A stretch of 35,555 bases of DNA, taken from contig NYTN01000053.1 of NCBI GenBank assembly GCA_002683515.1, positions 1-35,555 on the forward strand, read 5' to 3'. The notes beneath the pieces were generated by a model. The model saw nothing but the letters and a program-made list of their open reading frames with translations. It ran no database searches and had not been told where the DNA came from. Each line of letters starts with the position of its first letter. Position 1 is the stretch's first letter. The position numbers and the translations under genes are program-made. Shown one piece after another: positions 24,373-32,180 of the stretch. Source of the stretch: Rhodobiaceae bacterium. Lineage in GTDB: Bacteria > Pseudomonadota > Alphaproteobacteria > RS24.

Positions 24373-24440
24373 GCTATTATTCGTCGTCTGTAACGGAAAT
24401 ACCGTCCTCCACAGTGCATCCCGCCTGTAGAAAGTAACGA

Positions 24441-24609
24441 CCATATATGGCAGGTTTCCTGGCTTGCGTATCAGCATGTTTTGTCGCCTTCCCCTTCCGG
24501 GTGGCATATGACAAACACTTCTCGCCTACAGTTGCGGGAGCAGCTACAGAGTTGGTAATAACAACCTTACTGTATTCCCTTTTACCCCCTTCACGGGGCA
24601 CCAAATATG
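24441..24609 (-). promoter_or_regulatory. Cobalamin riboswitch (adenosylcobalamin-type aptamer)
   Basis: Read on the minus strand, the conserved elements of the cobalamin aptamer occur in order: GGTGCCCC, AAGGGAATACAG, CTGTAGCTGCTCCCGCAACTG, ATGCCACCCGGAAGG, GATACGCAAGCC, and the B12 box AGCCAGGAAACCTGCC at 24449-24464. The ends CATATTTGG and CCATATATGG can form the closing P1 helix. It lies in the 5' leader of btuB and should lower expression of the whole operon when adenosylcobalamin is plentiful. Confidence 0.95.
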
Positions 24610-24616
24610 CCTAATC

Positions 24617-24645
24617 GTCATACCCTGATTGAAAAAATCGGTCAA
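24617..24645 (-). promoter_or_regulatory. Sigma70-type promoter of the btuB operon
   Basis: On the minus strand TTGACC and TATGAC are separated by exactly 17 bases (five and four of six consensus positions). Transcription would begin at about 24610, the first base of the riboswitch aptamer, which makes the assignment convincing. Confidence 0.65.
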
Positions 24646-28542: not shown

Positions 28543-29262
28543 ATGGAAAAAAATACCTCTAAAAGGCGCACTGATATTGCTGCCGAGACCATTGGCAGGC
28601 AAATTGTAAGAGGAAAACTGTCTATCGGGCAGGTTTTGCCTAATGATCAGGTCATGTGCGAGTCACTCGACATTTCCAGAACTATTTTACGAGAAGCATT
28701 ACGCATATTGGGAGCTAAAGGGCTTGTAAAAGCTGTTCCAAAAGCCGGAACATTCGTAAATGATACAGATAAATGGGCCATGTTAGACTCAGATATCCTA
28801 AATTGGCTCACCGATACCACTACGAGCAGTCGTCTTGAACCTCTTTTGGTGGAAATGATTGATATCCGTCTTGCTATTGAACCTGGCGCTGCCGCACTTA
28901 CCGCTTCTCGCGCACAAGCCACCGAACGACAAAGAGTATCTGAATTATTTCAATCACTTAAACTCGCCACCACGCCAGCATCAAGCCATGAGGCGGAAGC
29001 CGCTTTTATTGACTGCATTTTAGCGAATTGCCACAATCGTTTCTTCAATAGCCATCGTATGTTAGCAAAAACCTGTCTTAAATTGCTCTTTGAGCATACG
29101 GAAAGATATAATTACTTATCTCTTACCGCCCATGAAGCCGCCGTTCGCGCCATCATAAATTATGAACCACAAAATGCGCGGCGCAGCATGCAAGCTATAT
29201 TACTGCAAGCATCTCCTATTATCCGAAACAAAAAAAACCCTGCTGACGAATCAGCAGGGTAG
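28543..29262 (+). CDS. GntR-family transcriptional regulator (FadR/FCD subfamily)
   Basis: A DNA-binding repressor or activator with an N-terminal winged helix (AAETIGRQIVRGKLSIGQVLPNDQVMCESLDISRTILREALRIL, residues 13-58, then AKGLVKAVPKAGTFV) and an all-helical FCD effector domain from about residue 100. FCD domains usually carry a metal site from a D..FH motif and two more His. Here the equivalent segment reads EAAFIDCIL, without the Asp or His, and the final His is replaced (AILLQAS), with only TAHEAAV kept. Metal binding is therefore doubtful. No regulated pathway is adjacent. The last codons coincide with a hairpin at 29238-29259. Confidence 0.88.
   Translation: MEKNTSKRRTDIAAETIGRQIVRGKLSIGQVLPNDQVMCESLDISRTILREALRILGAKGLVKAVPKAGTFVNDTDKWAMLDSDILNWLTDTTTSSRLEPLLVEMIDIRLAIEPGAAALTASRAQATERQRVSELFQSLKLATTPASSHEAEAAFIDCILANCHNRFFNSHRMLAKTCLKLLFEHTERYNYLSLTAHEAAVRAIINYEPQNARRSMQAILLQASPIIRNKKNPADESAG
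29230..29259 (-). terminator. Strong intrinsic terminator on the minus strand, inside the gntR 3' end
   Basis: On the minus strand CCCTGCTGA-TTCG-TCAGCAGGG is a perfect 9-bp stem with a four-base loop, followed directly by eight T residues. On the plus strand no T-tract follows the hairpin. It is therefore oriented against gntR and implies a minus-strand transcript, for which no protein gene is present. Confidence 0.7.
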
Positions 29263-29325
29263 AGTTCAGGGATATGTGTGTGAGGGTTTAACACACAGTC
29301 CGTCTTGGGAGACGGATATTTAATT
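29230..29325 (-). ncRNA. Candidate small RNA antisense-oriented between gntR and the EF-hand gene
   Basis: On the minus strand three hairpins follow each other: TCCGTCT-CCCA-AGACGGA (29299-29316), TGTGTGT-loop-ACACACA (29275-29297), and the intrinsic terminator at 29238-29259 with T8 tail. Two loops carry pyrimidine-rich strings, TCTCCCA and AAACCCTC, of the kind that can pair with ribosome-binding sites. No protein-coding gene lies on this strand here. The 5' end is not defined; I see no convincing promoter. Confidence 0.45.
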
Positions 29326-29367
29326 TACGTTGCGTTTAATAAATTGGATTAACTAATGGAGAAAAAA

Positions 29368-29706
29368 ATGCCTTTTAAGTTCGAAATTTTTACAAAGCGT
29401 TTGATTACCCTGGTTGTTTTGGTGGTAATGATAATAAGCTTTAGTAATTCAGCCTACGCAGCGCCAATCCGTTTTAAAGCTATGGATGCGAATAAAGACG
29501 GCAAAGTCACGCAACAGGAATTTACTGCCAAAATCGACCAGCAATTTGCTAAGATGGATAAAAATAATGACGGCTTGATCCAGCACAATGAGCTGAAAAC
29601 TTTCCATGCCGCAAAATTTGAAAAAATGGACCGCGACAATAATGGATATCTGGATAAAAAAGATAGACGCGTCAAAAAAATGGATGAGAAGGAAGGTCGC
29701 CACTAG
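29368..29706 (+). CDS. Exported EF-hand protein
   Basis: A small secreted or periplasmic calcium-binding protein. The signal sequence (FTKRLITLVVLVVMIISFSNSAYA) is followed by three EF-hand loops: DANKDGKVTQQE, DKNNDGLIQHNE and DRDNNGYLDKKD; the tail is highly charged (RRVKKMDEKEGRH). ATG 29368 is preferred because GGAG lies seven bases upstream; the track ATG at 29356 overlaps that site. It is the first gene of the sigma-factor operon, ending 17 bases before the sigma gene, so its product may be part of the envelope signal it reports. Similar EF-hand genes beside ECF sigma factors are common in alphaproteobacteria. Confidence 0.88.
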   Translation: MPFKFEIFTKRLITLVVLVVMIISFSNSAYAAPIRFKAMDANKDGKVTQQEFTAKIDQQFAKMDKNNDGLIQHNELKTFHAAKFEKMDRDNNGYLDKKDRRVKKMDEKEGRH

Positions 29707-29723: not shown

Positions 29724-30275
29724 TTGTCTGAACCCAGCGACGAAGACTTAATGTCTGCAATTGCTGAAGGCGACCAGATGGCCTTCAATCTGCTGACCTC
29801 AAGGCATTTGAAGATGGTTTATGCGATAGCATTGCAGAGATTAAAGCACCCAAGTGACGCTGAAGAAGTGGCACAGGATGTTTTTACCCGTCTCTGGCAA
29901 AATGCACCTAAATGGGAAGCCGAAGCCAAAATCAGCACATGGCTTTATCGTGTTTGCGTTAACCGCTCGATTGATATGCTAAGGCGGCGCAAACCCATGA
30001 CCGATATAGACGATGTTCCAGAAATTCCAGATGGTGCCGATAACGCTCTTCAAACTTTGGAAACCAAAGACAGAAAAAAACAAATAGAAGAAGCATTAGG
30101 CAATTTAACGAGCGAACAGCGTGACGCTATCCAGCTTGTCTACTTTTCTGAGATGAAGCAACAAGAGGCTGCTGACTCGCTTGGGTTGAGTTTAGCAGCA
30201 TTGGAGTCACTTTTACGCCGCGCCAGAAAAAAACTGCATACTGTATTAAATGAAAATTATGAAGAATTATACTGA
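29724..30275 (+). CDS. RNA polymerase sigma factor, ECF type
   Basis: A group IV (extracytoplasmic function) sigma factor. Region 2 (FNLLTSRHLKMVYAIALQRL, DAEEVAQDVFTRLWQNAPKW, STWLYRVCVNRSIDMLRRRK) and region 4 (LTSEQRDAIQLVYFSEMKQQEAADSLGLSLAALESLLRRARKKL) are complete in 183 residues. The start is TTG, fixed by a full AAGGAGG six bases upstream. It is followed after 38 bases by a single-TM protein that is probably its anti-sigma factor. ECF factors usually activate their own operon; no clear GGAAC-type promoter was found upstream. Confidence 0.93.
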   Translation: MSEPSDEDLMSAIAEGDQMAFNLLTSRHLKMVYAIALQRLKHPSDAEEVAQDVFTRLWQNAPKWEAEAKISTWLYRVCVNRSIDMLRRRKPMTDIDDVPEIPDGADNALQTLETKDRKKQIEEALGNLTSEQRDAIQLVYFSEMKQQEAADSLGLSLAALESLLRRARKKLHTVLNENYEELY

Positions 30276-30313: not shown

Positions 30314-30781
30314 ATGACTGACGAAAAGAAAAACGCCGTATCTTTCGATATGCATAAATTCAAAACGCTTATCTCTGCCCATGGTAGTGATATTGCAAAA
30401 TGGCCCGATGATAGCCGCAATTGGGGGCTGGCCTATAGCAGCGATAATAACGAAGCTCAAAAATTCATCTCTTATGAAAAAGAGCTGGATGATGTATTGG
30501 TGGATATTCACAACACTGCTCTTAACTCTGAAGATTTCTCGAGCCTTCAATATAAAATCGTTTCCGAGGCCACGCGCCTACCTCAACAAATGCACTCGAG
30601 CAATCAAAATCCTTTTATGGGTTCATCCATTCAATCCGTAGCCGCCTGCTTAATGATGTTTGTCTGTTTGGCAGCGGGCATGTTCAGCCTCCCCTATCTG
30701 CCTTTGGACACGATTACCTCCACTTACAGCGAACAAAACTTCGCTTTTCTTGAAATCAATCCTTTAAGTTCATGGGATTAA
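30314..30781 (+). CDS. Putative anti-sigma factor, single transmembrane segment
   Basis: A 155-residue protein with a cytoplasmic N-terminal half that contains HGSDIAKWPDDSR, a motif recurrent in alphaproteobacterial membrane proteins encoded next to ECF sigma factors. A single hydrophobic helix (SVAACLMMFVCLAAGMFSLPYL, about residues 108-130) precedes a short periplasmic tail. There is no zinc-binding HxxxCxxC motif, so it is not a ZAS-type anti-sigma. Gene order and topology support an anti-sigma role, but I see no direct sequence proof. Confidence 0.68.
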   Translation: MTDEKKNAVSFDMHKFKTLISAHGSDIAKWPDDSRNWGLAYSSDNNEAQKFISYEKELDDVLVDIHNTALNSEDFSSLQYKIVSEATRLPQQMHSSNQNPFMGSSIQSVAACLMMFVCLAAGMFSLPYLPLDTITSTYSEQNFAFLEINPLSSWD

Positions 30782-30794
30782 ACTGGAGTTGATC

Positions 30795-31334
30795 ATGAAC
30801 CCCACGCTTATCCAAATCAGCAAACGAAAACGTATTATTTTCATCATTGTGCTCCTGTTTTCTCTTGCCGCAAATTTCTTTGTACTTGGCGCAGGAATTA
30901 GTTTCTTTATGCAGAGTCAACCAACCGGTGATGCTGAAAAAATAAAAACTGTGGAAAGGCTAGAAAAAAGATTTCTAAAACGCATCAATGCAGATGATCG
31001 ACTGGCTGTCCGCGAGGTTTTTAAACAAAACAGGAAACAAAGCGCAGTGCTGTTCAAAACCTATTTCAAAGAAAGAGAAGAAGTCATCGCCTACATTCAA
31101 GGTGATGAGATAGACAAAACTGAACTGCAAATAATGTCAGATAATTTGTTACGCCAAGAACGCGCATTGAGTATTCATCTCAATGCTGTTTTACAACAAC
31201 TTATCCAAGTGTCAGGACAAGAGACCAGAGTGCGTATTGCAGATATGCTTCGCCTAAGAGATGGCCGCCACCGTGGTGGGCGCAGTTGGCTAGCACCTAA
31301 AGAAAGACTTCGTAAGCACCAGGATAAAAAATAA
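30795..31334 (+). CDS. Periplasmic Metal_resist/CnrX-like protein, membrane anchored
   Basis: One N-terminal TM helix (IIFIIVLLFSLAANFFVLGAGISFFM, about residues 12-38) is followed by a helical periplasmic domain (LEKRFLKRINADDRLAVREVFKQN through RQERALSIHLNAVLQQL) and a basic Arg/Gly/His tail (LRDGRHRGGRSW). This layout fits the Metal_resist (PF13801) group related to CnrX and CpxP. The HxxxH metal ligands known from CnrX are not visible, so nickel/cobalt sensing should not be assumed. ATG 30795 has TGGAG six bases upstream. Sigma, anti-sigma and periplasmic protein together recall CnrH/CnrY/CnrX. Confidence 0.75.
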   Translation: MNPTLIQISKRKRIIFIIVLLFSLAANFFVLGAGISFFMQSQPTGDAEKIKTVERLEKRFLKRINADDRLAVREVFKQNRKQSAVLFKTYFKEREEVIAYIQGDEIDKTELQIMSDNLLRQERALSIHLNAVLQQLIQVSGQETRVRIADMLRLRDGRHRGGRSWLAPKERLRKHQDKK

Positions 31335-31374: not shown

Positions 31375-32148
31375 CTATCGCGGTGTCATTCTAATACCGC
31401 CATCCATGCGGATGCATTCGCCATTAACGTAATCATTTTCAACGAGATACTGCGCCGTTTTAGCAATCTCATCAGGTTTACCAAGGCGTTTTGGATTTAG
31501 CACTGAGTTTTCCAAAGCTTGGAAAATATTTTCCGGCAGAGTATCAAACATAGGCGTATGAATAAGGCCGGGTACAATTGTGTTGCAGCGAATGCCAAGT
31601 TCAGCCAAATCGCGCGCAATGACGATTGTCATACCTATAACCCCGCCCTTTGTCGCACTATATGCGACCTGACCGATTTGACCCTCATAACCCGCTACTG
31701 ACGCGGTGTTGATAATCACCCCTCGCTGACCATCATCAGTAATTGGATCATTTTTCATCATCGACTCAGCGGCAAGACGCGCCACATTAAACGTACCGAT
31801 GAGGTTTACATCTATAACACGCTTAAAATCTTCAAGTGGATGCGGCCCGTTTTTGGGATGATATGTCTTAGCAGCCCAGGCAATACCAGCATAATTACAA
31901 CAAATGTGAGCTGGGCCAAAAGCAGTTTCAACTTCTTGTATCGCCGCGCTTACAGAAGCCTCATCCGTGACATTTACCTGCTGGTAAATCACATTATCGC
32001 CCAACTCTTCTACAAGGGCTGCGCCACGCTCCTCATTCATATCAAATATCGCGCATTTCGCACCATGCGCAACAAACCTTCTAAGTGTCGCCTCGCCAAG
32101 GCCAGATGCCCCGCCTGTAATGATTGCAACCTTATCTTTTAAGTCCAT
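31375..32148 (-). CDS. SDR, 3-hydroxyacyl-CoA dehydrogenase type II (HSD10-like)
   Basis: An NAD-dependent SDR resembling HSD17B10, which oxidises 3-hydroxy-2-methylbutyryl-CoA and other 3-hydroxyacyl-CoAs. TGGASGLG lies at residues 12-19, NYAG (a variant of NNAG) near 88 and the catalytic YSATK near 163; the C-terminal LNPKRLGKPDEIAKTAQYLVENDYVNGECIRMDGG is typical of the HSD10 group. The ATG at 32148 has AGGAG six bases upstream, better than the track TTG at 32154. It is the last gene of the carboxylase operon and is convergent with the sigma-factor operon. Confidence 0.88.
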   Translation of the reverse strand: MDLKDKVAIITGGASGLGEATLRRFVAHGAKCAIFDMNEERGAALVEELGDNVIYQQVNVTDEASVSAAIQEVETAFGPAHICCNYAGIAWAAKTYHPKNGPHPLEDFKRVIDVNLIGTFNVARLAAESMMKNDPITDDGQRGVIINTASVAGYEGQIGQVAYSATKGGVIGMTIVIARDLAELGIRCNTIVPGLIHTPMFDTLPENIFQALENSVLNPKRLGKPDEIAKTAQYLVENDYVNGECIRMDGGIRMTPR

Positions 32149-32180
32149 TTTCAACTCCTATTAAGCAACCGTCTAATTGA

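Follow-up and report, generated by a model that had tools for sequence, protein, structure and literature searches.

Organization of the Locus

The window, that is, the whole 35,555-nucleotide stretch of DNA analyzed here, belongs to a genus of the marine PS1 clade that includes the isolate IMCC14465 (assigned to the PS1 clade by NCBI). On its plus strand, a gntR regulator gene is followed by genes for an EF-hand protein, an ECF sigma factor, a probable anti-sigma factor and a Metal_resist-like protein (Table 1). The order gntR, ECF sigma gene, probable anti-sigma gene and Metal_resist-like gene is common to much of the family. Only the window's genus has the EF-hand gene in the interval from gntR to the ECF sigma gene, and the start of this gene is probably the one given in Table 1, since only two of the six genomes of the genus have the upstream ATG at 29356. 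Opposite the end of gntR lies an element predicted to encode a small RNA of ~87 nt, with three successive hairpins, the last of which is an intrinsic terminator.

Table 1. Coordinates of the annotated and predicted features of the locus
Feature	Position	Strand	Remarks
gntR regulator (GntR and FCD domains)	28543..29262	+	last 11 codons, including the stop, overlap the terminator
Intrinsic terminator, 10-bp stem and T8	29230..29260	-	third hairpin, 29260-29237; T8, 29237-29230
Putative small RNA gene	29230..29316	-	fold z -6.28; single copy in 6/6 genus genomes; 5' end uncertain, 29315-29322
Linker AUAUCCCUGAACU, single-stranded	29261..29274	-	29263-29274 invariant; candidate second seed
Hairpin 2 (UGUGUGU-UAAACCCUC-ACACACA)	29275..29297	-	identical in 6/6 genomes; candidate seed loop
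Hairpin 1 (CCGUCU-CCCA-AGACGG)	29299..29316	-	loop letters vary, stem preserved
Candidate ECF-sigma promoter of the EF-hand/ECF operon, AGACGG-N17-CGTT	29310..29336	+	overlaps hairpin 1 and the putative small RNA promoter
Candidate small RNA -10, TAAATT	29322..29327	-	TATATT/TATAGT in several RNA-bearing relatives
EF-hand protein gene	29368..29706	+	start probably 29368
ECF sigma factor	29724..30275	+	
Probable anti-sigma gene	30314..30781	+	inferred from position, no Pfam hit
Metal_resist-like gene	30789..31334	+	weak, below the Pfam cut-off

The minus strand folds with a minimum free energy of -33.9 kcal/mol, compared with a mean of -15.8 (SD 2.88) for shuffled sequences. A first-pass annotation of this DNA had reported three minus-strand hairpins that end in a 9-bp stem and T8, with no minus-strand protein gene for 2 kb upstream, and both observations hold. 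With the closing A-U pair counted, the stem even extends to 10 bp, and it has 9 bp otherwise; the nearest minus-strand protein gene upstream encodes an SDR dehydrogenase (31375-32154), ~2.05 kb away, with all intervening genes on the plus strand. Given this distance, the terminator is not part of a minus-strand protein gene; it is also the top terminator-like site within the 27- to 33-kb portion of the window. The plus strand folds equally well, but its strong stem has no T-tract behind it. The span originally proposed for the RNA, 29230-29325, is kept at its T8 end, whereas the 5' limit is better placed at ~29316.

The terminator indeed sits in the last codons of gntR, as initially described, and the gntR stop codon (29260-29262) falls within the terminator region. 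Across the genus genomes, this stop is TAG, TAA or TGA, always at the same place. The stop thus persists in different spellings, which means that reading frame and RNA alike are constrained there. The proposal that the gntR C terminus has been shaped by the terminator, or the reverse, is therefore borne out only in part, the end of the protein being retained while the letters drift.

Conservation within the Genus

A DNA search covering 61 genomes recovered the full element in each of the six genomes from the window's genus, always at one and the same site, and in none of the others. The first-pass annotation had named nonconservation of the stems and T-tract in relatives as the finding that would count against a small RNA; in the six genomes, the three hairpins and T8 are all intact. 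A covariance model, as had been suggested, detects one full-length copy in each of these genomes. Base-pair changes across the RNA are too sparse for significant covariation or statistical proof of structure. The 35-nt run 29263-29297, comprising linker and hairpin 2, is unchanged in all six, and no parts of the predicted RNA are more exposed or better conserved than the loop UAAACCCUC and the linker AUAUCCCUGAACU. By comparison, gntR and the EF-hand gene vary at 66% and 57%, respectively, of their third codon positions in the same genomes. Between genomes G000 and G002, only 1 of 89 RNA positions differs, yet 43% of the gntR third positions do. Hairpin 1 is more variable than the invariant run, but its stem is preserved, and in genome G001 one pair shows a compensated change (UA to CG). 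A peptide encoded within the element was considered and is not favored, because the strand lacks an ATG and the invariant run has no codon-position pattern.

Conserved, structured and noncoding, with an intrinsic terminator of its own, the element has the general hallmarks of a trans-acting small RNA. Comparison among relatives thus lends good support to the small RNA originally proposed: this is likely a real, previously unlisted gene, one that is overlooked by protein-gene finding, and we consider it very probable that a functional RNA is made from the minus-strand element. A strong one-sided terminator without an upstream gene could, in principle, merely end minus-strand read-through or antisense transcription, with the RNA itself functionless; such an explanation does not account for why hairpin 2 and the linker are invariant, and we regard it as extremely improbable.

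The Same Site in Other Genera

The genera denoted g4 (G012, G018, G020, G022, G024 and, twice, G027) and g3 (G011 and G017) also carry an RNA element opposite the gntR end, as in the window. Its first hairpin, clear in g4, is small; the loop of the second, CUCUCCUCCCCCCUCAUU, exposes the anti-Shine-Dalgarno (anti-SD) string CUCCUCCCCCC, and a GC-rich terminator completes the layout. In common with the element in the window, these elements have the position, the strand, the layout and, in the second loop, a CCCUCA stretch. No alignable sequence was found between the RNAs of the window's genus and those of g4 and g3, so that the case for a common origin rests on synteny. Cross-searches reached ~20 bits either way, model R2 being weak against the window's genus and model R1 likewise against the other genera, and an R1 search outside the window's genus yielded no match above chance. 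Matches of model R2 elsewhere, at 15-26 bits, were dropped; those inspected resembled ordinary gene-end terminators.

These relatives bear on the earlier suggestion that the C-rich strings TCTCCC and ACCCTC could pair with ribosome-binding sites in the manner of anti-SD small RNAs. ACCCTC is invariant in the six genomes, whereas TCTCCC, located in hairpin 1, is changed in two of them (TCTCTC and CCCTCT). The resemblance to anti-SD RNAs gains indirect support from the exposed CUCCUCCCCCC of the syntenic RNAs, although the motif is absent in the window's genus.

The association with the ECF operon is not constant. No such RNA was seen at eight additional loci sharing the ECF promoter. Conversely, at loci L075 (G020) and L078 (G017), the ECF operon is missing between gntR and the downstream gene, and the small RNA remains; in L075, the ECF -35 is degraded from TGACAG to TGATAA, whereas the RNA, its paired hairpin 1 and TATATT are intact. 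The persistence of the RNA at these two loci marks it as a unit of its own.

The constant position relative to gntR could point instead to a cis-antisense RNA acting mainly on the 3' end of gntR, to which it is perfectly complementary, and on transcription that reads through from gntR into the ECF operon. The RNA overlaps the last 11 gntR codons and the 3' untranslated region, and this position is preserved at every locus bearing it. Perfect complementarity, however, requires no invariance of the loop and linker, the most invariant part, which lies outside the gntR frame, and the anti-SD loop of the relatives is typical of action in trans; we consider a primarily cis-acting RNA unlikely.

Relationship to Known Small RNA Families

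At the gathering threshold, Rfam contains no family matching the window element or its counterparts in six syntenic loci, and a permissive search of the window and its relatives returned only generic small RNA models below threshold. Most of the nearest known parallels are alphaproteobacterial RNAs. Similar to alpha-r14 (NfeR1 of Sinorhizobium meliloti; RF02344) and the cuckoo RNAs, the predicted RNA has three hairpins, its own terminator and C-rich unpaired segments, and its syntenic relatives carry CUCCUCCC. The hairpins of alpha-r14 carry CCUCCUCCC (PMC10746234); unpaired CCUCCUCCC in all three hairpins, which characterizes that family, is absent in the window's genus and is confined to one hairpin in the relatives, so there is at most one anti-SD loop here rather than three, and none in the window's genus. 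RF02344 gave no match in the window at E values up to 10, and the relatives reached 25.7 bits against a threshold of 58.8. The alpha-r8/MmgR/SisA-D group (RF00519, suhB) likewise consists of small alphaproteobacterial RNAs with an unpaired UUUCCUCCCU core and a terminator, but there the anti-SD string lies downstream of a weak hairpin, whereas in the g4 and g3 relatives it lies within a hairpin loop; against the threshold of 41, the window scored 17.7 bits and the relatives 32.8 at best.

CcsR1-4 of Rhodobacter sphaeroides, stress small RNAs of the CcsR-like/cuckoo group (PMC10253847), are also alphaproteobacterial small RNAs. They differ in forming a cotranscribed cluster behind a DUF1127 gene, under an RpoHI/RpoHII promoter, whereas the window element is a single copy antisense to gntR with no DUF1127 gene beside it. 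When 271 nt were searched, the window element had its best Rfam E value, 0.00045, with anti-hemB of Burkholderia (RF02837), which also combines a C-rich loop hairpin with a terminator; the match, at 25.3 bits against a threshold of 49.5, comes chiefly from the terminator and leaves the middle hairpin unpaired. Judged by these resemblances, the small RNA may work like alpha-r14, suhB/alpha-r8 and anti-hemB, although it fails the score tests for membership, and it is probably an undescribed representative of the general kind of alphaproteobacterial trans-acting small RNA.

Predicted Interleaved Promoters

Upstream of the ECF operon, the motif NGAC(A/G)G-N16/17-CGTT is present in all four loci scanned from the window's genus. 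Among the other loci in which the ECF gene, or at least its start, is visible, 14 of 15 have the motif, the sole exception, L045, carrying the near variant TGACTG. This candidate ECF-type promoter is probably autoregulatory. The -10-like hexamer of the small RNA falls, on the opposite strand, in the spacer of the ECF promoter. It matches TATAAT at four to six of six positions in all RNA loci of the window's genus and of g4, and is weaker or missing in the two g3 loci. The eight loci without the RNA have no such element, the best match there being three of six. No recognizable -35 of the small RNA was found.

With the ECF promoter at 29310-29336 in the window, the 5' hairpin of the RNA overlies the -35 box, and because the 5' end of the small RNA does so, the two promoters should, from their geometry, compete. 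The same overlap raises the possibility of a DNA element rather than an RNA, consisting of inverted repeats bound by a protein, such as the GntR regulator, upstream of the plus-strand ECF promoter. Hairpin 2 corresponds to a 7-bp inverted repeat ~12 bp upstream of the ECF -35, and the overlap with the conserved promoter is clear. This explanation nevertheless appears decidedly unlikely: the repeat sequence is entirely different in other genera, where the layout of hairpin, terminator and T-tract stays, the element is missing from the eight relatives with the same ECF promoter, it is retained where the ECF operon has been lost, and T8 occurs on one strand only.

Proposed Action and Candidate Targets

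We favor, as the probable explanation, a free-standing RNA of ~87 nt with its own promoter, which would pair in trans with mRNA start regions and whose expression would be exclusive with use of the ECF promoter. Structure, conservation, synteny and motif overlap argue for this account, from which we infer transcription, trans pairing and promoter competition. The RNA would be transcribed from its own minus-strand promoter, at about 29322-29330, as far as the intrinsic terminator that lies within the end of gntR, and the exposed invariant loop and linker would then pair with translation-initiation regions of mRNAs, as modeled on the anti-SD small RNAs of Alphaproteobacteria. In NfeR1 (PMC10746234) and SisA (PMC12559287), C-rich unpaired stretches pair with mRNA start regions, and SisA pairing leads to repression of its targets (PMC12559287). 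By analogy with these two RNAs, trans pairing is the likeliest mode, and the RNA probably acts in this way. Since the RNA promoter and 5' hairpin overlie the ECF-sigma promoter, use of either promoter should exclude the other, so that an active ECF factor would lower the level of the small RNA.

Tried against 143 start regions, the loop paired no better than the control did, and no target stood out among them. Two sites recurring in several genomes in a seed search were rejected as antisense to coding sequence. The icd start region (UGAGGGUUAACUAUG; L227-L232, UGAGGGUU(A/U)ACUAUG) shows complementarity to the loop of hairpin 2 in five of the six genomes, at predicted energies of -14.2 to -14.8 kcal/mol; for the genome of the window itself, the value is only -9.7. 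Found after looking, icd is a weak lead as a target.

A further complementarity lies within the locus itself. Positions 30766-30778 of the plus strand (AAGUUCAUGGGAU), which belong to the final codons of the probable anti-sigma gene and lie immediately 5' of the Metal_resist-like gene, match the RNA linker with 11-12 pairs and one bulge in all six genomes. The RNA might thus regulate the neighboring ECF operon by local feedback at the Metal_resist-like start region; the predicted duplex has an energy of -14.2 to -14.9 kcal/mol in the six genomes, and 0.4% of 40-nt windows reach -14.2. As the site falls within the final codons of the upstream gene, however, its conservation may stem from coding, the RNA is also present where the operon is missing, and the pairing test was made after the data had been seen, all of which leaves such feedback improbable.

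An extension of the trans-acting explanation, which we put forward tentatively as possible rather than probable, is that the small RNA and the ECF operon share one interleaved divergent promoter and are made in turn, and that the RNA moved, at an unchanged site, from a canonical anti-SD seed to a genus-specific one. If so, the shared promoter would give the ECF factor a built-in off-switch for a translational repressor. The loci form a natural series, with the RNA and the ECF operon, the RNA alone or the ECF operon alone, that suits testing the joint evolution of a small RNA and a sigma-factor promoter on the same bases. PS1-clade bacteria are marine Alphaproteobacteria with small genomes, for which a strongly constrained single-copy RNA offers an entry to posttranscriptional control; literature searches by motif and by PS1 clade found no paper on this locus and no small RNA work on the clade.

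Other RNA Features

In the window's genome, locus L082 (G000:C36:12771-12889) contains another folded, terminator-ended element, 3' of a gene for a 240-amino-acid protein and conserved in genome G005. Within the window, Rfam identifies a cobalamin riboswitch on the minus strand at 24432-24620, with a score of 99.1 bits.
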